From positions 20,195,881-20,259,880 of the forward strand of contig QVOM02000049.1 in the NCBI GenBank assembly GCA_003586115.2: a stretch of 64,000 bases of DNA, in the 5' to 3' direction. The stretch's first letter is position 1. Each line of letters starts with the position of its first letter. Below the pieces are notes generated by a model. That model ran no database searches. It saw only the letters and a list, made by a program, of their open reading frames with translations, and was not told where the DNA came from. A program made the translations under genes and the position numbers. Source of the DNA: Salvator merianae. Its lineage: Eukaryota > Chordata > Lepidosauria > Squamata > Teiidae. Shown in pieces: positions 14,092 to 49,800 of the stretch.

Positions 14092-14315
14092 CTACAGCTT
14101 TGCTCCACCACGCCCAAATCCTAAGCTGAATTTTTTAGCACCAGGAACAGACTCTTTTAAGACCACCTGTGTTCCGGTGTCAAATTCAAACTGCATGGCT
14201 TCCGTGAACGAGGAAGCATCAAACGTACTGTAGTAAGCTGAGTTTCTGTCCACATAGACACATTGCTGAGGAAATTCTGAGATTTCTTCTGCTAGCTTAA
14301 TAGCATGCTGGAGTG
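14092..14315 (-). CDS. Crotonase gene exon 6: C-terminal helices, PTS1 and stop
   Basis: 224 nt from AG (14316-14317) to a TAG stop at 14092-14094. It encodes [20 protein letters not shown] through [19 protein letters not shown] to the end RGGAKL. The helical C-terminal trimerisation region is of normal length. The last three residues, Ala-Lys-Leu, fit the PTS1 consensus [SAC]-[KRH]-[LM] with Gly-Gly just before it. No canonical AATAAA is obvious in the roughly 1 kb downstream, so the 3' UTR end is not placed. Confidence 0.92.
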
Positions 14316-20300: not shown

Positions 20301-22899
20301 TATTTATTGCAAAGCCTTGAAACCAAAAGATGCTGCTTTCTGACAGAAAGCACACTCACACACAAAAAAGGGACTTTGTTGGTCCTATATGCTATATTGT
20401 TCACGTGGGAGTCCGCCTCTTAGAAATAGTTCACTTATAGGCAGCAAGGACACAACAAAAGATGCCCCAATGTGCATGAATTTACTTCTTATGATTTTCC
20501 AGAAATCTTTTCAGCATCAGCAATTGTTAAGAAATGTCTGAACATTTCCCATAGAAACATGATGCACCAGAAAAGATTTGGGAATAAGTTTCAGGGCACA
20601 TTTGCCACTTGCATCTGCAATGAATAGGTCTTCCCACAATTACTCTGTGTGCATCAGATGCTGTCAATAGCATTCACAACAACTTGTGGCTGCATATTAC
20701 ATGGGAAAATTGACAGTTGTGGTAAGGGTTTACTTTTCTCTACCAACTTCCTCCTTCAGGCTAGAAGTACAAGTTTAAGCACTCTTGACTAGTGGTTTTC
20801 AGGTGCCAGTGACCAGTGATCTGTGACACAATGACACAGTATTAAGACAGAAAAACATTTGCGGTTGGTTCACCAGGTCTTCCTAAGTTTTCAGGAGAGG
20901 TGTGCTAAACACCATTTTGAATGCTTTATAACATATAACAGAATATAAGGGTACTCATTTGCTACCTTGCTATTTCAGAGGTCCTGTTGCACGATTTTAG
21001 TATGGTTCAAACAAGACATCAATCATCTGCACTGTGATAATGGATAATGAGGCTAATCTGGTATATATTACAAAGATATGAGTAGATGACCGGTTGATGG
21101 GAAGGAATACAATGTTCACTGAGCTTTGTTCAGACTGGTGGAATGGTGAGATGTTCCTGAGCTCCATAATCAGACTTTCGGTGCTGTTGCTGGTGTTGGG
21201 CCTGAAGAATAGCACTGGATGACTCACAGGTTCAACACATGTGGGCATACAACACCTCATAACTACCTGGTGTTTGCCACTGGCTGGGTTGGTAGAATCC
21301 ATTTATTGGTGGATTTATGGTATTTTGGTGGATGAATCATTCTCTGGTGAGGTTTACATTACAGGAATGGCTCCTCTCAAATAGTGGCATACGGACTCTG
21401 ACTGGAGTTTCTATCAAGGCACAATCCTGCTTTGGAATTATGAGATAGCAAGTACCATTGACGCAGTTGTTCTATACCATGGAGCCCAAAAGACATCCTG
21501 ATATGCAGAAGCTATGCCCACTATTGGAAACCTGCTGTTTGTAATGCATTTTCAGTTCAAAATCACTCAGATCTGCATGAAATTGGATGCCATCATTCAA
21601 GACAGGTTTTGCTCAATAACTGCTTGCAAAGGTTCAACCAAACCTCATCAATTCTTAACCTTTGCTCATCATGACTGCTAAAAGCAAGACAAACACATAT
21701 GACTAGGTAGGTCTAGGGAGTGTAGAGGCCTCTCTGTGACAGGAAGGGCTTCTCTGCTCTCAGAAGAATTAAAAACTGTCACCCACTGGCACATGTCATC
21801 TTTGTTGAGAAAAAATTTGTAACCATGGTGGTAATCCAACAGCAGGCATGCATGAGGGAAACAGAACTATACCTCAACCCTTTTAAATTGAGAAATGGAA
21901 AGATCTACATGGAAGAATAGCAGCAGGTAACAAGAAATAAGGAGGCTGAATAAGAGAAAGGAACCAGTTCCATCTGTTGCACATGAGAAGTGATTTATTA
22001 ATGAGAAGATGCAATGGGAGCCGACCCTTAGAAGGTCAAAGTACCTTTAGACTGAAGTAATTCAGGAACCCAATGTTATTTCCAAGTTCTGATTCAGATA
22101 CCTTCTAGCTAATAAACTGGAGACATACTCCTACTTTTCAAAACTATTAGAAACTCAAGAAGGATTGAGGTATGAGTTGACTTTTCTGAAAGATAAGGGA
22201 CTAACCAGATCTGAATTACATATATCTAATTTTTATTTCCGTTAGTTTAGGTTCTTTCCTGCCATGGTGGAAGGGTTATATTAAGTAAGTATATACACAG
22301 TATATATTTTTATTGTTTTTATTGACTCACCCTGGGACCTTAGGATGACAGTTGTATTGTTGTTACTTGGGACCATAGGGTGATGGATAAAGTATATTTT
22401 GATGCTGTTATACATCTGAGCACTGTTTAAGTAAAAGCAATCAAACTTGCCAAGGTCATCTTGGAGCTACAGACATCAGACTGAGACTTCATCAGCACTG
22501 CCAGCAACTTCTGCCGAAGTGTAAACATCAATGTGTTCTTTCAAAGAACAATAGCATTTCAACCACCACAAATGCCTTTACGAACTCACCATTTATTCAC
22601 CTACAAATAGCAACATATCAGGTAATGCATTTTCTGAGCAACAAATGATAACCCGGTAATATATAAATAAATAATCAAAGGGAAGAAGACCAATAAAAAA
22701 GAGAAAGGACAAGTCAGAAACTTGAGTCTACAGGCAGAAAAAAGGCTGTCTAAAGCAACTGCAAGGTGAGAGTGGTGTGAGTGTCAGAGGAGGAAAAGAA
22801 GTGACAAGAAAAAAGTGTTAGAAGCATGAAAATAGAAAATATTTCAAACTTCCAGCTAGAGGAGTTTTCTCCAAAGCAAAAACAAAGAGTAAGCAGAAA

Positions 22900-22946
<47 letters not shown>

Positions 22947-25763: not shown

Positions 25764-25804
<41 letters not shown>

Positions 25805-28800
25805 GGATCTTGTCTGCAGGAAAGCCCAGTTTGACATTGCTATAAATTAAACAGGGTTTCATTCATGTTTGCTTCTAAAGACATTTCCCTTCATGCCAAC
25901 TAAAACAGCCATATTTTTAAAGAATCCGAGTATCAGAATATAGAACGTACGTGGACAACAAGACGTTAGTCACTTCTTGGATCTGAAGAATGGCAGCAGC
26001 TTTAGCAAAAGTTGAATAACTTACTGTATTATAAGTGATCTCCCTCATCCCCTGCCACACTTCCATGGTCAGATTATTGAAATTTTTAACACACCCGCAC
26101 ACAGAGAGAACCCCAAACCCAAAAATCTGAATCTGTACCTTTTTTGTTATGGCTAGTTCACTCCTGGCTTGAGTCCTTAAAAAAAACTCTGGTACAATAC
26201 AAACATCCCACCGCACCTACAATTTCCAAAGGCTGTTCTTCATTGAGATGTCAAGTACATGCTGTCATAATTTTGGTCACAAGTCAAGAGACACGGGGGG
26301 CGGGGGGGGGAGCAGCCACTTCAGTTTAAGCTGAATCAAAGCAGCTACTCTACCTTTTTTAAAACACCTTCTGTGCCAATTCAGAGTGAGGTGAAGCTCT
26401 GGGTCTTCCGCTTATAGGAAACTGGAGAGTAGTCCAAGAAAAGTGATATACGTTTGTCCGACAGAGGTAATTCCTTGCCCGTAGTCAAAGGATAACAGCA
26501 GGAACATGTTTCCATGAAGGGAGACATCTTATGTTTGGAAGAACTATGTTTCCATGTTTTCACACTCATGGCCTGTATTAAACAGAAATCAAGATTCTGC
26601 TTCCTATGGGGAATGAAGTTTGTCAAAGAGCTGCCAAGTGTTGGCTTTAGGAACCTGAACTATTCTGTAAGTTTACATTATAATACGCATGCTGCTGTCT
26701 GACCCACAGACAGCAATGCACCCTCTCTAAGGGCCTGTTCACACCAGCCTGCCAGTGAGCTCCCAGATGCCATAGACAACAAAAACATTGTCCACAGCTT
26801 GATGGCTCCTGGTCAGCAGAATTTGCATCCTCTTCTGGGAATGGGTGTAGCGGTGCAGTGTGGCTGCCGCTCCAGCTATGTAGTTGCATGCCACATCCCA
26901 ATCGTCATGGCAACAGCCAGACATTGCTGCACCTGCTGTCATGGTGGTTGGGCCTGCCATCTGCACTTCAAGTGCTGGTAGCACAGTACAGGGCAGATGG
27001 CCACTGCACCAATGGGTCTTTTCCACCCTAGAATGGTATTGTTATACCATTCTAGGCTGTAAATTGTGAATAAGCCCAAACTCCCCCCTTCCTCAAGGAA
27101 GTGTTGAAGTACCAATCTTCTGAAGTGCCATTTGCTGTGTGCTTCTAGGAAGTCAAGCAAGGAAGATTTTGTAAATGGCATTGTTCCCACATACCCTCCT
27201 TCAAACAATTAATATAAACTGAATTCCCCCCCATGGGCCAACGCCATTAAAACTAGAAAACAAGTCCTCAACCAGTCCAATATTTAATATGAATAAGGGT
27301 TTTTTGGAGTTTTGGCTTTAGATAAGGGTCTTTTCTCTTTTCATGTACCAATTTTTTAAAAAATGTAATTGCTTTTAATTCATTAAATTCGTGTAATTTT
27401 TATTCCAGTAATACTGTATATAATTGTTCTGGCCAAGGACAGGATAAATTTAATTTGATTCTACCTTTTTGCAAATGTTTGGGAACAGGTCATAAACTCA
27501 AGTTCTATAACTCTAAAAAGTACATTTTAAATGTTATTTGTATGCATGTATCTAAAACACAATGGATTCTATGTTCTAGTCAATGTTATATTTAATGTAT
27601 TGCCATTGAAGATCCTTTGCAATATTATCTGAATTAAACCGCACACATTACAACATAATAAAAAACCCTAGTCTAACTACCAGAGGGGAAAAAAATGCAA
27701 ACTTGAAAGAATGGGAGTGGGAAATGGGGAGATAGTTAAAAAGTCAAAATATTTTCACAAATGATCAGATACAGTTTAAGGCAGAACTTAGTCTTCAACA
27801 ATATGCTAATGTGTAGGTCTTCTCTGGCATCTAGCTGCAGCCGTTGATACAAAACAGCCAGCTCAAAGTTTTCTGATCACTGAGCTGAGAGAATTTCTTC
27901 CTCATTTCTGATAACAGTGACAACACATACTATCCTGCCTCTTCTGAACCATCTCCTTTCCTTCTTCATTGTTAGCTAGACATGAAATGCAAGCACTTCC
28001 ATTTTTAGTTCATCACTTATGACCTTTGCCATATCCCATGGCTGCCATTCTGTGACAAGTGCCTATCATACCTTCTTAGGATTCTGTATGAGTCCTCAGA
28101 CCCATAAAAACTGAGGACTTTTGATCTAAAAGCTTGGATTTCTTAACTTATATGTTAAAAGAGATTCCATAAGGAAGATATATAACTTCTAAGCTTTTCT
28201 AATAAGCAGCCATCCAGGACTTGGTCATGACTTGCATTTGCCTAACCTAGTTTATTTTGCATTTAACAGTCTTCACAAAATAGAACACTGACCTTGGCCA
28301 TTGGGAACTATTCGATTGGCCAGTCCAATTTCGTATGCTTCTTGGGAACCCACAGGACGTCCAGTGAGAATAAGATCCAATGCTCGGGATAGACCAATTA
28401 GTTTTGGTAGTCTTACAGTGCCACCATCTACCAGGGGAACACCTAAAGCACAGGCAGAATAAAAATAAAAAGCACCACCTTGATTATTTACCTTTAAAGC
28501 AAACTGGAGAGCTGTTGTCAGTGAAGCCACATGGTTTCATTATAGGTGATGAAGGTATAGCGAACAAGCATGGAATATCCTCACTCATCATCCAACTGCT
28601 TTCCTTCTTACATCTTTAACATCTTTAACCAATGAAAGGCGTCCCAAAATGATTATGGCATTTTCTCTTCTGGAAATGGGAAACTCTGAAAACGGTGGTA
28701 CTGCGTGCCGTTCAGCGTTCTGGCTTTCCATAGGCATCTGGCCAGACATGGTGAGAACAGGCTGGTGGGCCAGATGGTCTGCTGCAGCAGAGCTCCTTTT

Positions 28801-31800
28801 TATGTTCTTAGTACAACCGTCACAAAAAGCAATCTATTTATAAAAACTGTATGGATTCCAGTATTGTTCTAATGATCTTTTCACAAAAGGAAAATAATGA
28901 ATTTATTTACTCTAGGGGTTACAGTACATGCGACAAAGTCAGAATTAGTTTTGGCTATGTTCAGGAACCTTGGAGTAAGAACATCTGCAGCAGTTCAGTT
29001 CAAAGGGGGCCAGCTGCCCTCGTTCAGCTCCACATTTGTGTGCTGCGCTAGGGAGTAGCAGGAAAGCTTGGCATGATCTACCCTCACATCACACCAAACA
29101 GCTATTTTCTTGGTTTGACAGTTCAGCAACTTTTGCCGTCCAAACTCTAAAGAGCCATCAAACAACAAAGCAGGGGAGATGTGAATTAGATCCCACCAGG
29201 TCTTCCCATGACTCCTTGGTATATGACTTATCTAGTGAGCAACCCCCACCCCCCAACAATGAGAACTTTGAATGGGGTTCCAGATACACTACACATACCT
29301 AATGCACAGGATTATAATGCTCCTAATATATAAAACTTCCTTAAAAGCTGAACCACACTAGCCCTGCTATGTATTGTTTTATAAATTAGCCATTCGTTTC
29401 TCCTTCTATATCCTTTATACTAGTCTACCACAGAAAAAGACAAACAGTTTCTTTTGGATACTGTATACTTTTCTGATTTATTGAACTCCAATTATTTTCA
29501 GCTAAAAGCCTTAATCAAAAATTCACTGACCAGCTGGGCCACCTTGACTTTGTTGGCACTGGTGGCATTTAAGAAACTCCTAAATACTGCCTGCTTCTGA
29601 TTTTACTTGGCCTAGGAAAAGGAGCTAGCACTGCTTAAATTCTCAGCATTGTCAGTCTAATTGGTCCAAACAGATAAGAATGGGAATCAAATACCTCACT
29701 GTACGCTCGTTATGAAGATTAAGGCTGATGTGTCCTCTTAATGCAAGGTTTCCAGCAAATGGAAATCTGCATTGGAAATACTAACAAGTGCAAATCTTCC
29801 AACTAAATGGCTTCACTGTTACAGGCAAGACTAGGATTGCACAGTAAAACTTTACTAATCTTGAAGGAGAGGGTTAATACAAGGAAACCATCCAACAAGG
29901 ACACACTTGTTTGGGGGTTTGTTTGTTCTTTTAATTTCCAAATGCTCAATGTAATGGGGGGGAGTGCACCTGTACTCAGGTGTGTATGTGTGTGTTTGTT
30001 TAATTTTGTTTATATTTTATTTCATTTTATTTATATTTTTATCCCACCCTATACCCGGAGGTGCCAGGATTGGTCACAATAAAATGAGTATAAAAACAGA
30101 TAAAATAAGTTTAATCAATATCTAATAAATGTAAATAACTAATTTATATTTGCTTAACATCTAGCAGGTTTCATTGCTTTATATACAAGATCTAGGAGGA
30201 AACACAATACACTGCTTAATGCCATAGTAGATTTCCTTCCCATATATAAACCTAGTAAATTCCTAAGATTCCCACATGACTGTCACAAAAGAAGATCTTT
30301 TGGTAGTAGCAACAACCATCTGGAACACCCTTCTGTAAATAGCAGTCAATTGTGCCAGGATTTAGGTATGTATTACACAGGGTTTCCCACACACAAGACT
30401 TTACACTGCCCAATCATTAGTACAATTTGCATTGCAGGCTCTGCCGTAGATACAGGGTCTAGCCAGGTTAGGACCCTGGGGTCCTTAGGATAAAAGTCCT
30501 TTTAGGCCAAGAAAGCTCACCAAGCGATTTTAAGTCAGCCACTGCCCCTTAGCCTAACTTACCTAATCAGGACTGTTGTGAATATAAAATAGAGAGGAGA
30601 ATAAACGTGCAGCGTTGAGATCTTCAGTTCAAAAAGGGAAACATATAAAAACCATTAAAAAATTAATTGTTGGTATTTTTTCCAATGTTTTTATCTTCTC
30701 TTTGGATCACTTAGAGACTTCTGCAACATCAAGCACCATATGCTTTTTATTAAAATAAGTAAATAAAACAGGCTGGTGGTTCAGACTGGGCTGTGAGTCA
30801 CAGAGAACATCAGAAGTTTAATCAAGGATCCCTCAGTGAAATGAGGAGTATCAAAAAACAAAGGCTACCCAAGAGAAAGCCTGGACACAATGTCATAAGG
30901 ATGTAAGAAGAGCCCTGCTGAATCAAGCCACAGCCCATCTAGTTCAGCATCCCATCTTATACCAACTGTGTAATAAACAATATTTTCCTTATCCACCTTT
31001 TTCACACCATTCATGATTTTATATACTTCATTCAGGTCACCTCTTAAATGTTGTCTTTCAAGGCTGCAGTAGCCTAGACGTTGCAGTCTGATTCCGTAAG
31101 GGAGGTGTTCCAGCCCTCTGATCATTCTGGTTACCCTTTTCTGCACTTTATCCAGTTCCACAATATCCTGTCTGAGGTGTGATGACCAGAATTGTACACA
31201 ATAATCCAAATGTGTCCTCATCATAGATTTATAAAGAGGCATGATACTTGCTTACTTATTTTCTATTCCCTTCCTAATTACCCCTAGCATTAAATTTGCT
31301 TAGATTCCACAATGATTCCACAATTTCATTGAGCTGTTCACCAGAACCCCAAAATCTCTTTCCTGGTCTGTCACAGAAGGCTTGGCCCCCATCTGTTTAT
31401 AGATGTAATTGGGGTTCTTTGCCCCAGTGTGCATCACTTTGCACTTACTAACATTGAGGCACATTTATCACTTGGTTGCCCACTCACCCAATGTCAAGCG
31501 ATCCCTCTGGAGCTCTTCACAATCTCTTTCAGTTTTTACTGCCCTGAAATATTTAGTGTCATCGGCAAACTTTGCTATCTCACCGATTTCCCCTACTTCG
31601 TTAATCATTGAATTTAAAAGCACAGGTCCCAATACTGAATCTTGGGGGAATCCCACTTTTTACTTTCTTCCACTCTGAGAACTGTCCATTTATTACCATA
31701 AAGTTTTCTTTTCCAGTGTAGAGCTTCAGGAAGCACACTTTTCTTTAATGTGGTATAACACCCAAACATCAACCATCCTGGCCAGAGGCAATGTTACTGC

Positions 31801-34800
31801 TGCCTTATCAATGACAGCCAGCTCAAGGCAGAACTCCCTGTGTAGATGACTCCCACAAAGATCACTGTGGAAATTCAGGAATAACATACACTCATACTAC
31901 ACTCTATAGAAACAGTACACTCCCTTCTCTTCACTCTGGATGGAATGGGCCAAGTTTGCATACATTCAAAACCAAAGTCAAGATCAAATATACCAAAGCG
32001 CCTGCAGAATACTCCAAAAATTGCACTTTCTTCCACAACACGTAGGTCAGCCAAGAGGGACAGTTCGAGTCCACCAGCAACTGCATACCCGCTCACTGCA
32101 GCAATCACCGGCTTAGAAAATTTCATCCGAGAAGGACCCTGTAACAATTAGAATATATGCTATTTAGTACTGTCATATAAACAATACATATAGGAAACTT
32201 GTATTACTGTTTATCACTAAAATGAGGCACATAATCATCTGTCTCTATTTATTGCGCTAATAACTCTGCTTTCACAAAACCATGCCAAGGTAAGTTATAA
32301 GACAAACTCAGCCTTTTTGGGTAAAGAATGTTTGAACAATTCTTACTGCTTAAGGCACCATGGGAATTTGATTTTGTTAGGAAGCAGAATGTACACTGGA
32401 GGACTTAGAAGTACAGTCCTACCCATGTCTCCTTAAGCAATCAGTGTAATGGGGTTCCATGGGCCTCACTTCTAGATAATTACATATAAAACAGCAGTTT
32501 CAGGAGGGAATTGATGTAGCACAGTGGTAGAGCAAACTGCCTGAAAAGCAGAGGGTTACTGGTTCAATCCCCAGCCTCTTCCCAGAAATAAGCAATGGCA
32601 AACCATTTCTGTATCTCTGCCAAGAAAACTGCCCATGGTGGTGCCCATGCAGTCAACCAGGAGTCAGCCGCAACTCAGTGGCATGCAATAACATATAAGA
32701 TTGCAGGCTCAAGTTGCATGTTGTAACGTTCAGATGTTTAACACACATAGACAAATTGTAAGGTGACACTAATAGCATCTAGGATGTGATGATGTACAGA
32801 CCAAGCTTGATGAACAAAACCTACGAGTACATGCATGAAAAGGTTTCATCTTCTAGATCATTTTAAAAAAATGTGAGAAATTCCCAACTTGGCTAAAAAT
32901 GACATTGGAAGTACTACTTATTTATTTATATATTATTTTGTTTTATTTAAGTATTTCTATCCCACCCTTCATCGAAAAGACCCAGAGCAGATAAAATCAC
33001 TCAATAAAAACAATATAAAACATACTTAAAATATAACCTTTCCATCCTGACAGGACAACATTCAGAGGAAGGTACATATCAATGACTTGGGTAAAGAAGT
33101 ATGTTTCAACCAGGTGCTGAAGCTATGAAGTGTTGGCACCTGGCGTACCTCAACTGGTAGGATGCTCCACCACAGAAAAGACACTCTTGTGTGAAATCAC
33201 CCCACACATCTCTGCAGGTGGGGGAACCAAAGAAGAACAGGTTTGAATGGGAAAAGAAACTTTCCAATATTCAGGGTCCAAGCCATTTACAGCTTTATAT
33301 GTTAACATCAACACCTTGAATCAAGCTTAGTAGCAAACAGGAAACCAATGCGGATCTTTCAAGGTTGGTGTGATTTGCATCCAGCCAGAAACTCCTGTCA
33401 GCAGTTGAGCTGCTGTATTCTGTACTAAGTCCAACTTCTAGACCATCTTCAAGGGCAGCCTCATGCAGAGCACATTATGGTAGTCTACTCTATATGAAAG
33501 GTGGGCTACATTCACATGTAGTAAAAGAAAAACACATCTTAGGCAGCATACAAATGGTTTGGGGTGGGATCATTCACTTGCCAGTCGACCTTCTCGTCTC
33601 TCATGAATGCTCCAAGCTAGAAATGGTGGGTTAGAGATGGTATGAGAACACAAGCGCAATACACTACTCTCTAAAGCATATTTGAGCTGCTTTTTTGTTG
33701 CTGTGTGTGAATGCAGCAGGCAGAGACAGATAGAAAAATCCCAGTCAATTCTTATGCATGAACTAAAAAGTCCATAATCAAGAATTGCTGAGTGTCCCTT
33801 TTTCTGATAGCCACCAGAAACAAAAGTTTAATTCAAATGTTCATCATGCATCCTAAACACTGTCCTATGCCACCATCTTTTTCTCTCTCTTTGAGCACAG
33901 AAGAGTTTTGAGTGTTTATTAATTGTACATAGCTGAACATTCTTGCAACTGGGCACCCTGAATGCATGGAGTCCCCTGCTGTGAGGAAGGCTGTAATTAT
34001 ATTCAGCTTTAAGGTGATTGTTTCTGCAGAGTTATGTGTGGGATTAGCATTAATTACGTGATCTCTACATAACTGCAATTCCCCCCATAATTTGAAAACA
34101 CCTTTCATCTAGAACATTTCTTCCAGAGTTTGGAACAACCGGGCATTGATTGGGTAACAGGTATGGGACAAGAGTATCTTGTATAAAAGAGAAAGACCCA
34201 GAATGCACAGAGATCTCCAGGTGACTTTTAAGAGATGCTGAACCAGCAGAAAAGACAAGAACATGGTTTGCTGTCAGAGATGTCAGAAGTAAATCTGCAA
34301 ATAAAATAGTTTGGTTGTTAAATCACAGGATTACTTTAGAGTAGAAGTGTGCAAAATGCGATTCACAAGTTCAATAGAATATTTTGCATTCACAGATATT
34401 TGCATCGAAACAAAAATACAGTTTTGCGCATTTCCAAAACTTTGATCGAATCAAACCAGTCTCCCACTTGCAAAAACAGACAATTCGATTGAACATTTGT
34501 GTTTCGCTATGCTTTTGCTCATGGAAAGGGCTTTTTTCAGTGGGAAAAAATGGTATTTTTCTTTGCAAAAAATTGCAAAAAGGAATGTGAAAAACCAGTT
34601 TTTCGATTAAATGCTTTGACGATGAAATGAACAAATGTTTTTTGCTCTGACAGCAAAAGGAACACGTGAATTTCATTCATTCACATCTCTACTTTTGAAC
34701 TGAAATCACTTCTAAAAAACTTAGAGAAATGGGTTGTTTTTAAGAAACTAAAAGAACCAGCATCTATAAACTGTGCAGAATCTGTTCAAGAACAGCAAGC

Positions 34801-37800
34801 TAGGAACCTAATCACCTAAAGAGACAAGGCCAGCAGGAAGCCTGAAGGTTATGTCTGAGACCTCAGACAATTAAAAATAGTCTAGGAACTGATGGTACAG
34901 CAAATGCTCAGAGCACTATTCCACATTTTGGTGATCTTTTATTTGTTCCTCATGCTCAACTGGTTACTTTTTTAGCCCTAAGAATTATCAGTCTATGCTA
35001 CAGCAAATTACTTTTTAAATAGTCTGATAAAATCCTGGTATTAGATCATTTCCAGCCATTCTCTAAAATTCCGTGCCAGCCTATGGTATTAAAAGTCTAA
35101 GATGGCATTCCAATCTAGGGTCTCTACATCAGGATTTTTGTAAACTGCCCTGGTCACCGCGTTTTGGGTGGAAAGGTGGGCTATTTCATACACTGTAAAA
35201 GTACAAAATTCAATGTGCAGAAAAGTATTGTATTTAATGAGAGACATTGTCCATAATTTCCACATTTACTGGGAGTGGCAAACAAATAACTTCCTTTGGA
35301 AACACAGTCCGTTTTGATTTTTGTGCCTTCCAGAGAAGGGAAGATTCTTCCTCTTTCTCCTCTCCTGCTTTTTATGTCCATAACTTTAATTGAAATGTGT
35401 TGCTGGTTTCCATAGAGAAATGCAATACAGCCATGGAAATGGACTTGAGTTTTCAGAGAACTGTCAGGATTTCCCTGCAGACCATTTCTGAGAACATACC
35501 ATGGGGCCAGGACCTTTAGTGACATCTTGTTCCAATTTGAATGCGGCTGGATTGTTCGCCAAGTTTTTCAAATCATAACCAGCACAGAAATTGCCTCCTA
35601 CAAAACACCCACGAGGAAGAAAGAAAAAGATTAGGGAACAGTGTAAAAATGTTTGCCCTTTATTGTAATATGGTTAAGATTTAGGTCCTTATAGATGTAC
35701 TTAAAGTTATGACATTTTTACAGCATTCATGCACGACAGTGTCTTCAACAATCCCAAGAGAGCATAGATGACCAAATTCTGCACTGATGTGAATCAACCA
35801 GCCAATTCCATATCAGCATTTTTAAATCTTTATGGGAGAGAATACAGACTTATTTACTTCTGCTATTTTAACAGTTTCAGATATGATCCTCGCCACAAGA
35901 GCATATCACCTAAAAAAAGAAAAAACAATTTAACCACAGGGCTAGAATTCATTCCAAGGATTCATAATTGCATTTATGTCTGCCCTGACCCATATAGTCC
36001 CCACAACATCCCTTATCTCAAACTATGGTCTCCTTCATGTATCGCCACAGAAGCAGCTAATTCAAGCCTTTTCTTCAGCAGCAGAGGAATCGTTACTTTT
36101 GTATGTTTTGGAAGCAGAAGAAAGAACCACTGTTGACTCTGCTACCATGATGAAAAGGAAAGCACTGGTGCCCACACTATTTACTTTAATATCCAGCCCC
36201 GTGACTGGATAGAAAAAAAGAAAAATCGCTCGCTGACTACAGCACATAAAAGGCCACAAAGCAGGCATCACCCAGATATGAGTTTAACAGATGGGACCAC
36301 TGTTCAAGGCCCAACACTATAATTTTCTCAATCATATCAATCTTCTATAAATAACCTTACATATACACATCCTTGGGGGACAAAAGCCTTAAAAACATAG
36401 AATACACATAAATCTTTCTTGTTTTAATGTTTCCAGCTGTAGTCTCTATCCTTTTCCCCTCAGTCTACCAACAGCACAGCTGCTTCTGATTCCAGTGGAT
36501 ACTATTTTCTGCTATCTCACCAAAGTAAATACAATAATTATAAAGCAGAATTGTCAAGGAGGCTATCTGAGGGGAAAAGAAGAAAAATTCAGTTCCACCC
36601 CCTCTTTTTCTGAATATTCGCTGGCCTGCTGCCTTAGAAGTTCCAGTTGTCACGCCACAAGTTAATGTACGTGGACCGTTCTCTTTCCAGCAAAACCAGT
36701 TCTTTGAAGCCTGTGACAAATGACTGGTCCTTTTCATTTATCTGAATGGAAGTGCAGCTTCCAGAAGGCTTGGAAGTGAAATATTTTTAAAATACTACGC
36801 AAACACGCACACACCAGCCTAACCTGTCTTGTCAGGGCACTTTTGATGCACCTTTCTACTGTCATTTGCCTCTCACTCTAGCTTAGCTATTCCTTAAACA
36901 AAAAGCTATCATGTATTCATAAGCTGTGTTCAGACATAACAAAAGGGGCACCTCGGAGGCACCTCAGAGATAGTAGTGTGTGGCCCTTGCGTTTCCAAGC
37001 CTTCTCTATTCCGCCTTATCTAGCACAGAATGTTCATGAGAGGGGGAGGGGCAGACTGGCTTGTGAACAGTCACATCTCTAAGGCGTCTCTGAGGCTGCC
37101 TCCAGACAGCAGGAGGAAAACACAGAATCTTGTTTGGGTCCCGCAGTTGCCTCTGTCTTTTCTAGAAGGCAGGGCAAGCACAGGCCGTTTCCTGTCTAGA
37201 CTCTCACTCCCATGATGGCAAGGTGTGTCGTCTGGATATTTCAAAGGTACAAAATACCCGGAAATGTGCATGCACCAGCCCTCACATGTGTGTGCCAAGC
37301 ATTTTCAGTCTGGTTTCAGCCCTGCGCATGTACCGTGGCCATTTTCAAGATCCATGCTCAAAGCAAGCATCCAGACAAGGTAGGTCCTGTTGCTATTCTA
37401 GGAAAATCTAGGTTGATTTCCCAGAATAGCAATACCACGATATCAGAGGGCTATGTTAGGATTGCCACAGATACGTGTGGCAATTCCACGTAGCCCCAGG
37501 ATAATCCTACGTTTTAGGCCCTGTCTGGATGCAGCCTGTGCTGCCTCAGAGGTGCTTTTTTTGCTGTGTCTGATTACAGTCATAGTTAGATATAAACAGA
37601 TCACTGTACCTATGAGTGTTGCAAGAACTATCCTTAAACAACAAAGTATTTAAAATCTGCCAGATGTGCATCAGAATGAAGCAAATGCAAGGATACCCCA
37701 AACATACATCTCAATAAAAAGGAAGGAACATTTTTTTATTAAGAAAGCACAACACAACAATCACCAAAATGGGTAATAAAAACAAACACAGTACATGATT

Positions 37801-40800: not shown

Positions 40801-43800
40801 GTCTGCAAAAGGGATACACAAGAGATTTAAGGACATGATAAGTGTTTCTTTTTTAATATATTGTCCATCTGTCCCTAAAGCCTCAAATGTACCCTAGAAG
40901 TGCCTCTTTTAGCATGTCTGATCACACTCTCAAGCACACAGAGGATTTACCTGATCAATGGAAACTAAAGCATACAGAAGACTCACCCAGTCCATGGAGC
41001 ACTGCCACAGTTAGTGAGCTATCCTTTTCAAACAATTTGAAGGCCTCCACCAACAATTTTGCTGTCTCCTGATTCACAGCATTTCTGACTTCCGGCCTGT
41101 TAATGCCAATTGTCATTATGGTTCCATGGATTTCAGTAATCACATTCTTTTTCCCTGAGAAAACAGAACAGGCCGAAGAAAGAAGCCATATGTCTCAATA
41201 CTTCTTTTTTAAGACATTTATTAATACAGTAAACTCTAAATAATAGCTTAAAAATTAATATGATAGGCTATTAAATTACACAGTCAACATGAAGGAAATC
41301 TAAAATATCACCAATTCTTCATGGATTCAACTAAGCATGTGGACTGGAGTTAATTTGTTTGAAGCTGAATTGCCCTTTTTAACAGGCATGCGCATAAAAC
41401 TAGGCTAAGCTTGCCAGGCTTGGATACAATAAAACATGAGACACCCTGGGCAGTTCCTGGGAACTAATAATAATAAACAGCTGCTTTAAAATGGTGGTCT
41501 GAGGAACAGGAGGGGATCATTAATTCTGCAGAATACCAGCACTGAGTTAAAGGAACTCTAGACAATGGTTTTTAAAGACTTGTCCCCAGTTTTGTTTTCA
41601 ACCAGCTTGAATGATGAGAACAAACTTCTACAATGCCAGCCTCATCCTTATCTCTTTCTTCAGCCAATGGCTCAGACCCCAGATTCTTGGGAGGTGATAT
41701 ATGTAGCCGTACGTTTCAGTGTTTCAGTGCAGAAACTTGAATGTAGGTGCTTAAAAGAGATGGGCTTTTTTCCATAAGCAGCTTGTACACAGCAATCCAT
41801 GGAAAGAAGCAAGAATTCTACTTTATGTTACAGAGAGCCAGATTAAAAAAGGCACACTTCTCAGTTTCTTGGTTTCAGCGTATGGGGTAGGGTGGAATAT
41901 TATAACTTAAAGCTCTGGAAGCACAGTGAAAAGGTTCAGCCTGGATAGTATTAAGAATGGATTGGACAGATTCATGGAGGTATCAAGGGCCGCACAGTGA
42001 AAAGGTTCAGCCTGGATAGTATTAAGAATGGATTGGACAGATTCATGGAGGTATCAAGGGCTACAAGAATGGATGCCTAGGTACTGCTGCTAGAGTGGAG
42101 AGACAGGCAGAATGCCTCTAAAGGCCATTTGCAGGGAGTCAAGAGCAAGTGAAGGTTTTGCCTTCATCTTCTGCTTGAGAATGCCCAGAAGCAATTGGTG
42201 GGCCACTGTGTAAGACAGGATGCTGGACTAGATAGGCTGTGGCCTGATCCAGCAGGGCTCCTTTTGTGTTCTTATGTTCTCCACAATTTGAAGCACTTCT
42301 GCAAACCAAAGAAGTCTTCAGCATGTCCACAATTTTAGGTTTCATCATCCAAACCTCATGATGCTAGCATACAGTAAGTCTCCTGCTCCCTCCCTGGGAA
42401 ATAAAATCACGGAATTGAGTAGGGAAGGAAGGCCCTTTCTGCACTTGGCCTTATTGTGGATGATATCCCAGAACAGGGACCTGCTATCCACATGCTAGTG
42501 CAAACTATGAAAGGTCTTGCCCAGGGCCTACCACAGTCTGCACTAGCATGCAGATGTCAGGTCCCTATTCTGAGCTATAATCTGGAATAAGCCCAAGTGC
42601 AGAAAGGGCCGAATATTACTTCCTTCTTTAGTGTACTTGAACCTACCATCTGTGCTGCACGTATGAGTTTTTTTGTGGGTAAAAGGGACTACAATGAGAG
42701 CAACATAGCTCACTGCACTCCATATGGCATGAACTTTTCTTTGAATATATGTAATTTGCTACCCCAAAACAAAGTCACTGGACACCAATCCAAGCTCACC
42801 CGTTTACTATGCAATACTGCACCATTATAATTTATCAGCAGCAATAAAATGGAGACTCAACATTCAACATTTTAATGCATGGACCTTCAAGCTAACCCTC
42901 AATATAGTTCACCTAAAGACAAGTAAGCAAGAATCTACCTACTGTTTCATTACTAATATTAATCAACAATGATACAACTGTTAATTTAGGGTGCCTCCAG
43001 GTACCAGTTAAAAGCAGTGATTTTCCTGGGACTATACTGGAAATGCCAGACACAAGTGTGGCATTTCCAATATAGTCCTGGGTTAGTCCATCAATTACTA
43101 TCACTATCACTGTTACAGGAAATCCAACAATGATGCCAGGGTTCCCGTAATAGAGATGCTTTCTTATACATCTACTGACCTGAAATGAATTGTTGTTCTC
43201 ATGCTGAACAAAATAATGTGGAAGGGTTTGAAGAAGTACAAGACACTTATTCAGCTAATTTATAAAAGTACATAAGAATATAAGCACCTAAGAAATGTCA
43301 TCAGGGTTAATAGTCCTGACTTCAATGAATTGGGCCCCATCCAGACAGGGAGAATATAGAGCCATTTTGGGGCTACTATGGTGGGATTGCCACACATATC
43401 TGCAGCAAGCCCACTATAACTATGCTATATTCTCCCTAAAATGCATTGATATCCTATTTCAGGAAAACATTCCTTTAATTGTCCCATAGCATGATAAACT
43501 GGACTTTGATCCAATATGAGAGTACTTACTGATAGGGTGAATCAAAGGGCATGTTCCAACATGGTATTTAATCAGTTTACAGGCCATCTTCAGTTCCCAC
43601 TGATCTGACATAATCTTACCTTTCTGTAGTTTTTCTGGACTAAATTGGCGAAATCCGGACTACTTTGCATTCGGATTTAAAAGTTCTCAAGCCGTTCCAG
43701 ATCGCTAGCCTGCTTTACTTTGCGATGTGAGAATGCGGAAGGAGAATATTTGGGAGGGACTGTACTTTGGGGGGGGGGGCAGAGGGAAGGTTTCCCATTT

Positions 43801-46800: not shown

Positions 46801-49685
46801 TCAAGACCTGGATGTCAGTAGCTCCTTCCTGTGCACCATGAGGTGTAGCAACGAAATGGCGTCCAATCTGGAAACCAGCATTGCAGCCTTGATTTCACAG
46901 TACCAACTTGCTACGGTGCTGTACATTACAGGGGAGAAATTAAAGCAGGGAAGGGAGGGATACACTTTGTTATAGCTTCCAGATACAATGTGTCCCTAAA
47001 AGGCAGCCAGCTTTAAATTGATAGCTGGACATGAGGATGATTTTCCCTTCCTCCCTTCCTTGGACATAGCCAACAGCCACCTGCACCTACACAAAAAGGG
47101 GCTGGATGGCACATGCTAGCTGCTGACATTGGAGGTGCAGCAATGACATGGAACTCCTGGCTACCTCAAAAGTGGATGCATCAAAATTTTCCTTTTAACT
47201 TTCTCAACTTTTTAAATCTTTTCCATAACAATTTATTTAAAACTGGTGCCCATGGGGAAGCGACCCTTACTCCCATGCAACATGGTGTAAGCATTTGCAC
47301 ATTTCTGGAAAATTTCCTTATTAAAAAAAAAAAAAATCAATGATGTTTCAGTTTCTGGGCAGGCAGAGTCCAGCCTCTAAAGACATGGTTGGAAAATGAG
47401 GGGATGATGTGGAGGTAGCTGGTCAGGGGTAGGTCTCCGCCCCTATCCCGGCATGCATAAGCTTGATTGAGAAAAACTGATCCTATAAGGGCGAAGGGAA
47501 GGGCACTAAGGTGGTAAGGGGTAGAGACGTAAAAAGCACCTTTTAAGGAGACTGAGGATGGGAAAAGGAAGGTGTGAGCAGCAAGGCCCAAACTGAGGAC
47601 AGATTTTCGGGTGTTGGGTGTGATCAGGGCTGGTACATTTTCTGACTTGCCAAATAACACGGACTACCTTCTTGAAGTGTGACAATGGTCTAGATGTCTT
47701 TAAGCAAGCTGTGATACTGAACAACAAAGAACCTGGACTAGATGGGCTTCTTTTTAAGCCTAGAACCTCTTCCCAGGATGAGGAGATAGGAAGGTACTTT
47801 TAAAAACCCAATCATCAGCCACCTTACAAGTATAGTTTTGTGATAGGATGGTTTTGAAGGTGGTCTTTAGATGCCTGTGAAAACCTGGGCCCATTTACAT
47901 CCAACTTTTAATCTAACTTCAGTCCATTTCAGAGTGAAGAAACACACCAGCAAAGTCACAAATTGTTTTCCTTTGGCATTATCTAACTCAGAATCTAACC
48001 TTAGAACATAAGAGGAGGTCTGCTGGATCGGGCCACAGCCCGTCTAGTCCATCTGTCTCACACAGTAGCCCATCACTTGCTTCTGGGCATTCTCAGGCAG
48101 AACATAAAGGCAAAATCTTCAGCTGCTCTTGACTCCCTGCACATGGTCTTCAGAGACATCCTGGCTGCCTGTATCTCCAACCTAGAGGTGCTACCTATGC
48201 ATCCATTCTAGTAGCCATTGATGCACCTGTCCTCCATGAATTTGTCTAACGGTTTCTTAAACCCGAAACCTCTGGGTTTAGATAATGTGGAAACAAAAGG
48301 ATAAGTCACTTTTGTTGATGTAACTGTCCACTCTGAAGGTGGACTGAAGCTGGATTAAAACTTAGGAGTGACAAAGTTTTGGGAAATCTGATTTAGCCTC
48401 GAGCAGCTGGTCAGGCAAGGAAGTCAAAAACCTTCCAGCTGGGAAAACTAGGGAAGTTAATGAGTGACTCCGTATTTGGCTAATCTTAAACAGTAACACA
48501 GAATGCTGATGAAACCAACAATTACAGTAAAACAGTTTTATGTACTAAAAAGGCATTAACTGAAAGCTGCAGTCTTCCACGGTGACACATACCACATAAA
48601 TTGTATTGATTCCGAGGAAAACTGACCATAAAAATTTCAACACTGGATTAGAATACTATATTTTAAAATAAGAAATATAAAAAGATTGCATCTTCCCAGT
48701 CTAAAGAAGGTATGAGAACTACACAGCTTCAGGGCCATCTTTATCTTTCTGGTGTTACTTTTAAATATTAATATCTGATACTGTGATTGCTACCAGTCGC
48801 CTCATTTGGGAGTTACTGCAGCTCAATGGTAGAGCAAACTGCCTAGAAAGCAGAGGGTTGCCGGTTCAATCCCCAGCCTCTCCCTGGAAGTAGGCAGTGG
48901 GAAGCCTCTTCTGTATCTCTGCCTAGGAAACTGCATACACCAGGAGTCGGACACAACTCAATGGAACCCAATAAGAACAACAATCTCATTCCATATTGTT
49001 GTACAGATACAGAAAGCTGATCCCATTTCACTGGTATTCTGCCACTCTTTCTTAACATATCTCCTCCTTTCCCACCCCCCTTGTGAAAAATGTCTGTCAA
49101 TGCAATGGTTTAACACATCTTGAGGGCGGTGAGGATGGCATCCTTTTTCATTGCTACATTAACGTCCTCAGCAAATCACATTTATCATTCTAGATACATC
49201 GAGAAATTCTCCACGATCCTCAGTGAAGAGGCTCTCATTTTTCTGGCTGTGCTGCTTCAACCTTTGAGCCGCGTGCAAGTAGGAAATCAACAGGTGAGTT
49301 TCTCGTGGCCATGCATCAGCCGCTGAACAGTAAAGCGGACGACCTGTTGAATCTCTGCTTCATTTTGCAGCCCTGCCTGAAGCGTGTGGCCTGAAGGTGT
49401 CGCTGTGAGGCTGCAGAACAAAGTATGCGCAATCCCCAAAGAGCAGGCAAGCAATGGGTGCTACAGCTTTCAGCAAGCAATAAGCAAAAGAGTGTTACCG
49501 GGCAGGTGCCTGACTTGAACCGCTGTCAGATCCTTAAGCAGCCTGCTAAGCAGCGGACATTACAAACCTTCTCTGGGTGATGCGTCGCCACTGCCTGGAA
49601 TAGCTGAGCTCGCCTGCATGGCAGACATCGCTAGCCTTGGAAACATTCCTGGGAAGGTCCCGAGAAGGCGCAAAAAGGAAGCCAT
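14092..49685 (-). CDS. Crotonase-superfamily enzyme (enoyl-CoA hydratase/isomerase-like), complete gene, 6 coding exons
   Basis: Coding segments 49568-49685, 40987-41154, 35500-35597, 31994-32138, 28293-28442 and 14092-14315 join in phase (junction phases 1,1,0,1,1) at GT/AG borders to 903 nt, 300 residues plus TAG. Domains: presequence-like residues 1-40; crotonase fold from about 42 to 265. The oxyanion-hole segments are [10 protein letters not shown] and [11 protein letters not shown]; the Glu of LEL aligns with Glu144 of rat mitochondrial hydratase. The second hydratase Glu (Glu164) is Cys here (FGVFCRRFG), and VDGGT places an Asp where dienoyl-CoA isomerase ECH1 has its catalytic Asp204. 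The C terminus is AKL, a PTS1. By family it binds acyl-CoA thioesters and forms oligomers; the substrate is unknown. Isomerase or specialised hydratase activity is an inference. It matches none of ECHS1, ECH1, AUH or ECHDC1-3 as I know them; the closest remembered relatives are bacterial crotonases. Introns are 8.4, 5.4, 3.4, 3.6 and 14.0 kb. Confidence 0.93.
14514..14934. mobile_element. Non-autonomous DNA transposon, GGGCCT...AGGCCC ends, 3-bp target site
   Basis: 421 bp flanked by CAT on both sides (14511-14513 and 14935-14937). Ends GGGCCTGGAGACACTCAC and (reverse complement) GGGCCTTTTTGCACTTTCC. The 3-bp duplication suits PIF/Harbinger or Chapaev3-type elements. Long sections match 17326-17757 and 26731-27077. 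It lies about 200 bp from exon 6 of the crotonase gene. Confidence 0.75.
15601..15992. mobile_element. DNA transposon related to the GGGCCT group
   Basis: Left end 'ggggtctttctgcatgg' and right end 'aagtgcggaaaagacc' are inverted copies in outline. A CTA triplet occurs at 15598-15600 and 15993-15995. Borders are approximate because the ends are offset by a few bases. Confidence 0.55.
16655..16752. mobile_element. Palindromic hAT-type MITE remnant
   Basis: 'gttgctggactacaactccc' with a partial inverted partner 'gggagttgtaac' about 70 bp on, the pattern of a very common squamate palindrome. Other decayed copies: 6175-6280, 6630-6760 and 25145-25210. Confidence 0.6.
17195..17815. mobile_element. 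Dispersed reptile repeat interrupted by a MITE
   Basis: Two halves, about 17195-17325 ('gtagccgtgttagtctagat ... gcatctgatgaagt') and 17758-17815 ('gtctatgaaagctcatgcta'), are the parts of one well-known amniote repeat that in other copies are contiguous. The class is not certain. Confidence 0.7.
17326..17757. mobile_element. Non-autonomous DNA transposon nested in another repeat
   Basis: 432 bp with ends GGGCCTTTCCGCACCTTAC and (reverse complement) GGGCTTTTTTGCACTTTCC, flanked by TTA at 17323-17325 and 17758-17760. Removing it with one TTA rejoins the host repeat exactly, so the borders are firm. Confidence 0.85.
20075..20310 (+). mobile_element. CR1 LINE 3' end
   Basis: Plus-strand CR1 tail: 'ggttgaacctcaggaaaaac ... 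ggcctaaatagtcccttcca'. Decayed; ends near 20300 in an AT-rich stretch. Confidence 0.8.
22895..23035 (+). repeat. GAAA then GGAAA microsatellite
   Basis: (GAAA)n from about 22899 to 22944 passes directly into (GGAAA)n to about 23030, with GCAAA variants at the right edge. Frames through it encode only Lys/Glu/Arg or Phe/Leu/Ser/Pro strings and are not genes. Confidence 0.95.
23104..24564 (+). mobile_element. 1.46-kb DNA transposon copy, no recognisable transposase
   Basis: Flanked by CTTAAA (23098-23103 and 24565-24570). Ends 'gtgcagtcagacac' and (reverse complement) 'gggctcagtcagacatc' form the inverted repeat. A second copy, same orientation, is at about 43547-44704. The longest internal frame (179 codons, minus, 23251-23790) resembles no transposase I know and is not conserved in the second copy. 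Confidence 0.75.
25765..25801 (+). repeat. GT dinucleotide microsatellite
   Basis: About 18 GT units with one CG interruption at the left end. Confidence 0.95.
26731..27077. mobile_element. Non-autonomous DNA transposon, GGGCCT group
   Basis: Left end GGGCCTGTTCACACC, right end 'gtgaataagccc'; flanking triplets TAA and AAA differ by one base. Internal text matches the copies at 14514 and 17326, including an inverted pair near the right end ('cctagaatggtattgttata'). Confidence 0.65.
28293..28442 (-). CDS. Crotonase gene exon 5
   Basis: 150 nt between AG (28443-28444) and GT (28291-28292, GTCAGT). It encodes [20 protein letters not shown], then [20 protein letters not shown] and [10 protein letters not shown]. 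The '[10 protein letters not shown]...[10 protein letters not shown]' block is the canonical crotonase helix region. Asp of VDGGT occupies the position of the ECH1 dienoyl-CoA isomerase aspartate. Confidence 0.94.
28720..28815 (+). mobile_element. CR1 LINE 3' fragment
   Basis: 'gcatctggccagacatggtg ... ttttatgttctta', the 3' segment shared with 39840, 42100, 48003 and 56760. It lies in intron 4, about 280 bp upstream of exon 5. Confidence 0.75.
30005..30110 (-). mobile_element. LINE 3' tail (L2-like)
   Basis: 'tttatatttttatcccaccc' followed by a decayed body, the reverse of an L2-type 3' end; same pattern at 32930. Confidence 0.5.
30865..31680 (-). mobile_element. CR1 LINE with reverse-transcriptase fragment
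   Basis: The minus strand encodes [17 protein letters not shown] and [11 protein letters not shown] (RT motif with the catalytic Asp pair), then [14 protein letters not shown]; further down [20 protein letters not shown] and [17 protein letters not shown], the C-terminal CR1 ORF2 block. Broken between about 31250 and 31460 by frameshifts and stops. It sits in intron 4 in the same orientation as the gene, which explains the long minus-strand frames there. Confidence 0.92.
31994..32138 (-). CDS. Crotonase gene exon 4 (active-site region)
   Basis: 145 nt between AG (32139-32140) and GT (31992-31993). It encodes [20 protein letters not shown], then [15 protein letters not shown] and [12 protein letters not shown]. 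It contains the second oxyanion-hole Gly and the Glu equivalent to hydratase Glu144 (in LEL). The Glu164 position falls on Cys. Confidence 0.94.
32490..32690 (+). mobile_element. tRNA-derived SINE in crotonase intron 3-side flank
   Basis: Head 'gtagcacagtggtagagcaa', B box 'ggttcaatcc', body ending 'ccaggagtcagccgcaactc'. Possible target-site copies 'acatataa' at 32482-32489 and 32691-32698. It lies in intron 3, about 350 bp from exon 4. Confidence 0.85.
32930..33490 (-). mobile_element. L2-like LINE 3' region
   Basis: 'gtatttctatcccacccttc' tail followed by antisense 3' text ('acaccttgaatcaagctt', 'gcacattatggtagtctact') common to the L2 copies at 10.8 and 1.9 kb. In intron 3. Confidence 0.65.
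34342..34691. mobile_element. hAT-like MITE
   Basis: 350 bp; ends TAGAAGTGTGCAAA and (reverse complement) TAGAGATGTGAATG. The flanking octamers CTTTAGAG and CTTTTGAA match at six of eight positions, as expected of an old 8-bp hAT duplication. The interior is rich in 'aattcgatt' and 'ttgcaaa' inverted pairs. Confidence 0.7.
35500..35597 (-). CDS. Crotonase gene exon 3
   Basis: 98 nt between AG (35598-35599) and GT (35498-35499, GTATGT). It encodes [19 protein letters not shown] and ends KGPGPM. 'FCAGYDLK' is the first oxyanion-hole loop of crotonases (FCAGADLK in many relatives). It is too short to stand out as a long open frame and was found by expecting this motif between exons 2 and 4. Confidence 0.93.
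36924..37585 (+). mobile_element. hAT-like MITE family A, split by a second element
   Basis: Left part 36924-37093 and right part from about 37538 together equal one family A element (compare 53395-53605). The middle is the family B element at 37094-37537. Confidence 0.75.
37094..37537. mobile_element. DNA element family B nested in family A
   Basis: Ends 'ggctgcctccagacag' and (reverse complement) 'ggctgcatccagacag'. Full-length sister copy at 55082-55506. Contains the diverged hairpin 'gggctatgttaggattgcc' paired with 'ggcaattccacgtagccc'. Confidence 0.75.
38937..39225 (+). mobile_element. L2-like LINE 3' end
   Basis: Decayed ORF2 C terminus ([24 protein letters not shown]) followed by an AT-rich tail '...ggataaaaatgaatataaat'. 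It lies in intron 2. Confidence 0.65.
39840..40050 (+). mobile_element. CR1 LINE 3' fragment
   Basis: 'aggatgcctctaaaggccat' through 'gatgctggactagatgggct' to 'ggtccttttatggtct'; parallels 42094-42275 base for base over much of its length. Confidence 0.8.
40140..40206. repeat. Common squamate dispersed repeat fragment
   Basis: 'agtgggacttacttctgagt' ... 'ggttaggattgcac', a motif I know from many squamate intergenic regions; class uncertain. Confidence 0.5.
40684..40930. mobile_element. MITE with GTGTGATCAGACA ends
   Basis: Left 'gtgtgatcagacac' and right 'gtctgatcacac' are inverted copies; the interior also has inverted segments ('aaatctgaggctttaagg' against 'cctaaagcctcaaat'). The right end stops about 60 bp from crotonase exon 2. 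Confidence 0.7.
40987..41154 (-). CDS. Crotonase gene exon 2
   Basis: 168 nt between AG (41155-41156) and a consensus GTGAGT donor (40981-40986). It encodes the first crotonase beta strands: [20 protein letters not shown] followed by [15 protein letters not shown]. The 'NRPEVRNA' block is the usual N-terminal signature, and '[10 protein letters not shown]' leads into the oxyanion-hole loop. The phase fits exons 1 and 3 (split Gly codons at both ends). Confidence 0.93.
41921..42061 (+). repeat. Perfect 71-bp tandem duplication inside a CR1 fragment
   Basis: Unit 41921-41991 is repeated at 41992-42061 without a mismatch over 70 bases. Both copies read 'gcacagtgaaaaggttcagc...'. It lies at the 5' side of the CR1 end (to about 42275). 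Confidence 0.95.
41921..42275 (+). mobile_element. CR1 LINE 3' end
   Basis: 'aatggattggacagattcat' ... 'gatgctggactagataggct' ... 'tttgtgttcttatgtt', the same 3' region as 39840 and (reversed) 48003. In intron 1. Confidence 0.85.
42431..42610. mobile_element. Near-palindromic 180-bp MITE with clean 3-bp target site
   Basis: Starts GGCCCTTTCTGCACTTGG and ends with its exact complement CCAAGTGCAGAAAGGGCC. Flanked by GAA at 42428-42430 and 42611-42613. Most of the element folds back on itself. End motif and 3-bp duplication link it to the GGGCCT group at 14514, 17326 and 26731. Confidence 0.9.
42985..43160 (+). mobile_element. Family B element fragment with strong hairpin
   Basis: 'gggtgcctccaggtaccag' end, then a 20-bp stem (43029-43048 with 43059-43078, one mismatch) and a 10-nt loop, then text ending 'gggttcccgtaatag', as at 58150-58330. 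Confidence 0.65.
43330..43450 (+). mobile_element. Family B element fragment
   Basis: 'ccccatccagacagggagaa' end and the hairpin-like core 'ggctactatggtgggattgc'; decayed. Confidence 0.5.
43547..44704 (+). mobile_element. Second copy of the 1.46-kb DNA transposon
   Basis: Matches 23104-24564 in order and orientation ('tatttaatcagtttacaggc', 'ttttctggacta', 'tgccactgtggatgtcttgg', 'cccctgtgaagtcaagattt', 'gatatggatta'). Shorter by internal deletions; the poly-G run near 43770 is unique to this copy. Confidence 0.75.
44723..44925 (+). mobile_element. tRNA-derived SINE with ACAAC tail
   Basis: Well-preserved copy: A box 'gttcagtggtagagcaa', B box 'ggttcgatcc', tail 'caacaacaacaacaaa'. The anticodon-loop equivalent reads CTGGAAA, suggesting a tRNA-Ser(GGA)-like ancestor, but this is tentative. 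Confidence 0.85.
45650..45815 (+). repeat. Left arm of a 1.5-kb-spaced inverted repeat
   Basis: 'ccaaccatgtccttagaggt' ... 'gaaacaccattgattttttg' ... 'tctggaaatgtgcaaatgc'; the reverse complement recurs at about 47292-47440. Element class not recognised. Confidence 0.7.
45816..47291. other. Unclassified segment between the inverted arms
   Basis: No open frame I recognise and no familiar repeat. Near 46060-46080 there is 'caccaatatttaaggagtat', resembling a core promoter. It lies in intron 1. It could be part of a decayed long-terminal-repeat or DNA element, but I find no protease, polymerase or transposase motif. Confidence 0.35.
47292..47440 (-). repeat. Right arm of the same inverted repeat
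   Basis: The reverse complement reads 'ccaaccatgtctttagaggc' ... 'gaaacatcattgattttttt' ... 'ccagaaatgtgcaaatgc'. The A run at about 47324-47337 marks a likely 3' tail in one arm. Confidence 0.7.
47884..48381. mobile_element. Long-inverted-repeat MITE split by a CR1 fragment
   Basis: Left part 47884-48002 and right part 48284-48381 match the element at 8899-9112 ('cattatctaactcagaa', 'gtggactgaagctggattaa'). The middle is CR1. Confidence 0.8.
48003..48283 (-). mobile_element. CR1 LINE 3' fragment nested in a MITE
   Basis: Reverse of the 39840/42100 type: 'agaacataagaggaggtctg' ... 'catgaatttgtctaacgg' ... 'aaacccgaaacctctg'. Inserted in the loop region of the older MITE. Confidence 0.85.
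48811..48985 (+). mobile_element. tRNA-derived SINE
   Basis: Same family: 'cagctcaatggtagagcaa', 'ggttcaatcc', and an end 'ggagtcggacacaactcaat' followed by an AACAAC run. A short internal piece is missing relative to the 44.7-kb copy. Confidence 0.85.
49568..49685 (-). CDS. Crotonase gene exon 1: start codon and targeting presequence
   Basis: 39 codons plus one base, ending at a GT donor (GTTTGT, minus strand, 49562-49567). The ATG sits in a strong Kozak context (ACCATGG) with an in-frame TAG nine bases upstream, so this start is well supported. The peptide begins [20 protein letters not shown], with Arg at 6 and 17, no acidic residue before residue 34, and many Ala, Ser, Leu and Met: typical of a mitochondrial presequence. 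Alternative starts at Met20 or Met23 would drop most of it. Confidence 0.88.
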
Positions 49686-49800
49686 GGTGAACTACTCGGA
49701 ATTCAAGAGACCAGGACTAAAAACGTAGCAGCGTCCTGAGTTTTAAATAGACCCTCTATTGCTAGTGTTTGCTTCAAGCAAACTTTCAACACAACCCACA

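Follow-up and report, generated by a model that had tools for sequence, protein, structure and literature searches.

Two known crotonases serve as reference points for the gene considered here. Human ECHS1 carries a pair of catalytic glutamates, named E144 and E164, and ECH1, the delta3,5-delta2,4-dienoyl-CoA isomerase, carries a presequence and has a dual peroxisomal and mitochondrial location. Closer relatives are the EchA5 proteins of mycobacteria and kindred bacteria, for which no established reaction was found in our literature search or in the Discussion of PMC3220763. Zebrafish zgc:101569 has already been listed as a peroxisomal candidate in PMC8919083, the only paper concerning this gene that was found on searching the literature by gene and record names. 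We describe here a crotonase gene in a 64,000-nucleotide (nt) stretch of the genome of the tegu, Salvator merianae (GCA_003586115.2, contig QVOM02000049.1, 20,195,881-20,259,880, forward strand); this stretch is termed the window, and coordinates are positions within it. It is highly probable that the tegu gene belongs with the fish genes named zgc:101569 and is a functional vertebrate gene for an EchA5-type crotonase.

The presence of the gene is confirmed. A preliminary description of this DNA had joined six blocks in phase to 300 codons with a Kozak start, splice sites and a stop, and its coordinates (14092-49685) proved exact. The coding sequence of 903 nt (300 codons plus stop) is formed from six minus-strand exons spanning 49685-14092 (35.6 kb). 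The start codon lies in a strong Kozak context, CACCATGG, and the introns, of which 5/5 are GT-AG, have phases 1, 1, 0, 1 and 1. The exons are as follows.

49568..49685, minus strand: crotonase exon 1, with the start codon at 49685 and a presequence-like N-terminus; residues 1-40, the last codon being split.
40987..41154, minus strand: crotonase exon 2, residues 40-96.
35500..35597, minus strand: crotonase exon 3, residues 96-128, with FCAG at residues 99-102.
31994..32138, minus strand: crotonase exon 4, residues 129-177, with AGGLE153L and GVFC173RR.
28293..28442, minus strand: crotonase exon 5, residues 177-227, with D182GGT and a phase-1 donor in frame with BMP6 exon 2.
14092..14315, minus strand: crotonase exon 6, residues 227-300 and the stop, with a C-terminal AKL.

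The joined protein matches UniProt A0A8D0BQ28_SALMN ("Uncharacterized protein", Salvator merianae) over its full length with 100% identity to rounding, at least one residue being different (I45 in the window, V45 in UniProt). Other lizards have a motif, (A)MQASSA..P.EG, that is homologous to the part encoded by exon 1. Membership of the ECH_1 superfamily (PF00378) is evident from a score of 148.2 bits over residues 48-246 against a gathering score of 27, and the NCBIfam model for EchA5-type crotonases (NF006108, PRK08259) scores 364.6 bits over residues 42-299 against an equivalog cut-off of 273. EchA19, the name given by NCBI to many of the orthologs, is ruled out as an identity by the score of 190.6 bits for the EchA19 family NF051848, whose cut-off is 400. 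The AlphaFold2 model has a mean predicted local distance difference test score of 87.6; confidence is low for the last 3 residues and for most of the first 40. The top 22 rows of a Foldseek search with this model are EchA5-type crystal structures (template modelling scores of 0.91-0.97 by target). The match to the family hidden Markov model over residues 42-299, the predicted fold and the Foldseek structures, together with the full-length UniProt match, indicate that the exon set did not arise by chance. By the family profile, EchA5-type structures score 386-427 bits versus 116 for human ECHS1 and 107 for ECH1 (8sk6), in agreement with the earlier view that this crotonase is unlike ECHS1, AUH and ECH1; the 60 structure rows listed include no ECHDC1-3 chain. 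A further claim, that it is closest to bacterial proteins, stands only in part: EchA5 is nearest among solved structures and curated families because of what has been crystallised and curated, but in a tree the eukaryotic sequences group on a side of their own.

The distribution of the gene was derived from two vertebrate listings, namely the best 120 of 7,998 scored matches for a tegu query and the best 120 of 8,000 for an echidna query. Rows of these listings are clusters named after one member, some having no name, and proteins below 0.55 of the query length were not candidates. The tegu query found 15 squamates by name, tuatara, turtles, echidna, amphibians, lungfish, teleosts and sharks, to which the echidna query added platypus. 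Among the best 120 for either query, no row bears the name of a therian, bird, crocodilian or snake, although orthologs from birds or snakes should rank ahead of the listed amphibians. The suggestion in the preliminary description that the gene was possibly lost in some mammals fits the presence of monotremes and the lack of a named therian row among the matches listed. Judged by absence from these listings, there have apparently been separate losses in therians, archosaurs and snakes.

A search for long proteins, with a length window of at least 331 amino acids that thins out vertebrates, extended the family to invertebrates and fungi. Its best 120 of 2,425 matches include a brittle star (62%), crinoid, horseshoe crab, tick, pseudoscorpion, copepods, springtails, mosquito, tardigrades, centipede, snail and four fungi. 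A 70-row tree was made from 40 of 80 collected bacterial loci together with 12 vertebrates, 14 invertebrates and 4 fungi; in it the 30 eukaryotes are separated from the 40 bacteria on one branch with support of 100/98, and the vertebrates group together with 100/97. If bacteria are disregarded, the branch between animals and fungi has 100/99, but that between animals and fungi plus bacteria has only 90/65, and the brittle star adjoins it with 86/62; given these weak supports, branching within the eukaryotes is poorly resolved. A recent transfer of the gene from a bacterium to vertebrates might be proposed because the best curated family and the best solved structures are bacterial and because a tree in which bacteria are the only other group places the vertebrates on a single long branch (0.65). 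The relatives in many invertebrates and fungi among the long-protein matches listed and the 70-row tree refute such a transfer for vertebrates, even with the weaker animal branch, and we give it almost no credence. As the separation of eukaryotes from bacteria indicates that the gene is old, we conclude that this is probably an old eukaryotic gene, dating back at least to the divergence of the animals and fungi sampled, provided that their rows do not stem from contamination.

The gene and its orthologs are already in UniProt and NCBI as "Uncharacterized", "EchA19-like", "zgc:101569" and "sidH-like", without known function. The preliminary description of an under-described vertebrate enzyme was thus right in that the enzyme is poorly described, but it is already recorded in these databases and, being present in invertebrates and fungi, is not specific to vertebrates.

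Alignment to human ECHS1 places E153 at the first catalytic glutamate and C173 at the second, and hence the tegu protein has one of the two glutamates of an ECHS1-type hydratase. A classical enoyl-CoA hydratase, duplicating ECHS1 in another compartment, would be expected to keep both; the change to cysteine has occurred despite identity in 36 of 90 columns of the active-site segment, and ECHS1 itself scores poorly with the family profile. We regard such a duplicate as rather unlikely. The signature GVFCRR[FW]GVP...DGGT together with AGGxE is present in the tegu protein and, per counted column, in 20/20 vertebrates and 78-80 of 80 bacteria; across these sequences E153 and D182 are invariant and C173 varies once. 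Among the 19 named rows of the long-protein search (18 non-vertebrates and one fish), AGGxE and DGGT are found in 19 and the CRR motif in 17.

Several observations count against the reading of the gene as a functional EchA5-type crotonase. The 80 bacterial loci were gathered by two patterns, one of which, GVFCRR, holds C173, so that the conservation of C173 in bacteria is partly selected. Of 155 direct neighbours of these loci, 147 have at least 90 amino acids and 118 of the 147 were searched against Pfam; no Pfam family was present in more than 5 of the 118 neighbours, giving no recurring partner and no hint of a pathway. According to PMC3220763, M. tuberculosis without echA5 showed no growth phenotype on the carbon sources that were tried. 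This silent deletion and the family-wide loss of the second glutamate would suit a pseudo-enzyme, in which the crotonase fold acts as a scaffold or CoA-binding protein and not as a catalyst, but chemistry is indicated by the near-invariance of E153, D182 and the oxyanion-hole motifs between bacteria and lizards. A single acidic residue is also enough for several known crotonases, and we consider a pseudo-enzyme unlikely.

For a catalytically active crotonase, true hydratase activity is doubtful because one of the two catalytic glutamates is a cysteine. One-base chemistry appears likelier than the classical two-glutamate hydration of a straight-chain enoyl-CoA, since C173 replaces the second catalytic glutamate of ECHS1. 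Crotonase domains of ~260 residues within an oligomer would bind an acyl-CoA thioester, an oxyanion hole formed by backbone NH groups near A101 and G151 would hold the enolate, and E153 would act as general acid/base. The outcome may be double-bond isomerisation, or hydration or dehydration of an unusual or branched enoyl-CoA. The oligomer, the acyl-CoA substrate and the reaction of the tegu enzyme are inferred.

A putative promoter element lies upstream of the gene.

49801..49810, no strand assigned: Banp motif TCTCGCGAGA, an exact consensus and a palindrome, 116 nt upstream of the start codon.

There is 1 match to TCTCGCGAGA in the 64 kb versus 0 in 100 dinucleotide shuffles, and the observed/expected CpG ratio is 0.77 at 49601-50000 versus a window median of 0.18 (rank 19 of 636). 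The Banp motif is described as an element of metabolic-gene promoters in PMC9363121. Complete frames are also found on contigs too short for five introns, in some "lgn" rows that carry no species name, such as P0022 (309 amino acids, at most 1152 nt) and P0037 (303 amino acids, 1283 nt). From our reading of the source label, we take these rows to be transcript assemblies. Expression of the tegu gene is presumed. RNA evidence from tegu is lacking, as it would be for a dead or unexpressed relic whose exons are intact by chance or recency, and this counts against a functional gene. However, the 300 codons are intact over 35.6 kb, the catalytic residues are conserved, an exact Banp motif is present near the start and orthologs occur across vertebrates, making a relic extremely improbable.

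The subcellular location of the protein may be dual in lizards. The tegu AKL conforms to the pattern for a peroxisomal targeting signal type 1 (PTS1), [SAC][KRH][LM], as do the C-termini of 15/15 squamate rows, and this tail would direct the lizard protein to peroxisomes. Of 144 vertebrate rows, 138 have the search motif and 106 of these have an initial Met and at least 35 residues before the core. By composition only, most of these extended N-termini are presequence-like: 98 of 106 contain no more than one acidic residue among the first 30, and 101 of 106 have a net charge of at least +2; the tegu N-terminus has 0 acidic residues and a net charge of +2. A basic, acid-poor N-terminus of this type may direct a share of the protein to mitochondria. 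Peroxisomal targeting is, however, no constant of the family, as PTS1 is not general: a canonical signal is present in only 21 of the 144 vertebrate rows, 27 of which end in GKL, and 44 of 120 listed rows end in -FS. Outside vertebrates, a canonical PTS1 occurs in 4 of 18 named rows, including terreus and Orchesella; of the 112 new rows of the long-protein listing, 13 have one.

The earlier placement of the gene between DSP and BMP6 is borne out by matches to both neighbours.

63688..63999, minus strand: C-terminal coding end of DSP (desmoplakin), matching structure 1lm5 (4e-29); upstream neighbour, same strand.
2871..3561, minus strand: BMP6 exon 1, with the start Met at 3561, a phase-1 donor after 2871 and a TGFb_propeptide match (1.6e-23); downstream neighbour, same strand.

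The order along transcription is therefore DSP, crotonase and BMP6, all on the same strand. BMP6 exon 2 lies ~70 kb beyond exon 1 in the genome, has 95% identity to an Anolis model over 65 residues and is joined in frame by the exon 1 donor. SNRNP48, which lies between DSP and BMP6 in human, had no convincing match to a human query in the window, including 49686-63687 (best E 1.4), nor was there a match in the 200 kb that follow BMP6 exon 1. Two models named Programmed cell death protein 6, P0149 (Nibea albiflora) and P0158 (Aldrovandia affinis), contain EF-hands and a crotonase, which suggests that PDCD6 adjoins the crotonase gene in some teleosts or that the models are merged.

Five database proteins from distant vertebrates fuse the crotonase to BMP6 (P0147, P0152, P0155, P0161 and P0121), namely models from platypus (A0A6I8NDY5), Anolis carolinensis (XP_016850649.1), Anableps, Oryzias sinensis and carp. 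A common junction in four of the five (platypus, Anolis, Anableps and Oryzias sinensis) joins the last-but-one crotonase exon to BMP6 exon 2 (...VP.GQ/VEYDxE..., with the slash at the junction), while that of the carp model is inside the last crotonase exon. In tegu, the donors of crotonase exon 5 and of BMP6 exon 1 share phase 1, and splicing of either one to the exon 2 acceptor gives V-EYDKEF; as the chance of a phase match is ~1 in 3, the tegu phases permit but do not prove a chimera. A conserved read-through pair, in which transcription that starts at the crotonase promoter continues into BMP6 and crotonase exon 5 is spliced to BMP6 exon 2 as an in-frame chimera, is a tentative possibility that we do not favour. 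Neither the signal peptide of BMP6 nor the C-terminus of the crotonase would be present in the chimera. All five fusions are database models with gene-prediction names by their labels and may be an annotation artefact, models can spread between species by annotation, and no crotonase-BMP6 transcript was found in a limited literature search. If true, a read-through would couple BMP6 dosage to a metabolic-type promoter, or yield an intracellular form of BMP6, in non-therian vertebrates, and therians would have lost this device together with the crotonase gene.

One locus for this gene was found in the 2.05-Gb tegu genome, the protein matching its own six exons and, more weakly, four other places (14/14 candidates scored), the best of which are two intronless ECHS1-like frames with 32% identity. 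These two frames, near-identical and full-length (325 amino acids), are located at G000:C951:7487-8224 and G000:C1688:34764801-34765538 (L081 and L082); they resemble processed copies or two haplotypes of a single copy. Intron 1 of the crotonase gene has a 70-nt unit in exact tandem duplication with a spacing of 71 (41921-42061), and intron 4 has a 128-codon minus-strand frame (30865-31251) that by eye resembles the end of a long interspersed nuclear element reverse transcriptase and has no Pfam match.

In summary, the earlier interpretation is supported with corrections: the gene is known to databases, is old and has probably been lost several times. An unnamed acyl-CoA enzyme would have persisted for a very long time in fungi and animals, with apparent loss in therians, archosaurs and snakes; if these losses hold, neither mouse nor human could be used to address the clean question that it poses in peroxisomal or mitochondrial fat metabolism. 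The common junction, if real RNA, would link the crotonase to BMP6 regulation. The value of the gene lies in its missing biochemistry and in this read-through lead.

Compared with known systems, the tegu protein shares family, fold, E153, C173 and D182 with mycobacterial and kindred EchA5 (4z0m, 3qka, 4qfe and 3r9q; 54-59% identity), whose aligned chains, unlike the tegu protein, have neither an N-terminal extension nor a PTS1. With ECHS1 (human 2hw5 and 8zru) it shares the crotonase fold, the first catalytic glutamate and the oxyanion-hole motif but differs at the second glutamate and has only 29% identity over the fold. ECH1 is likewise a crotonase with a PTS1, zebrafish Ech1 ending in SKL according to PMC8919083, but is distant by the family profile. 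The vertebrate relatives include zebrafish zgc:101569 (F1R2G5_DANRE): rows named zgc:101569, "enoyl-CoA hydratase EchA19-like", "carnitinyl-CoA dehydratase-like" and "sidH-like" head both vertebrate listings, and genes of this type adjoin BMP6 in several species according to merged models, the zebrafish protein differing in its C-terminus, given as SKL in PMC8919083, from the AKL of the tegu.
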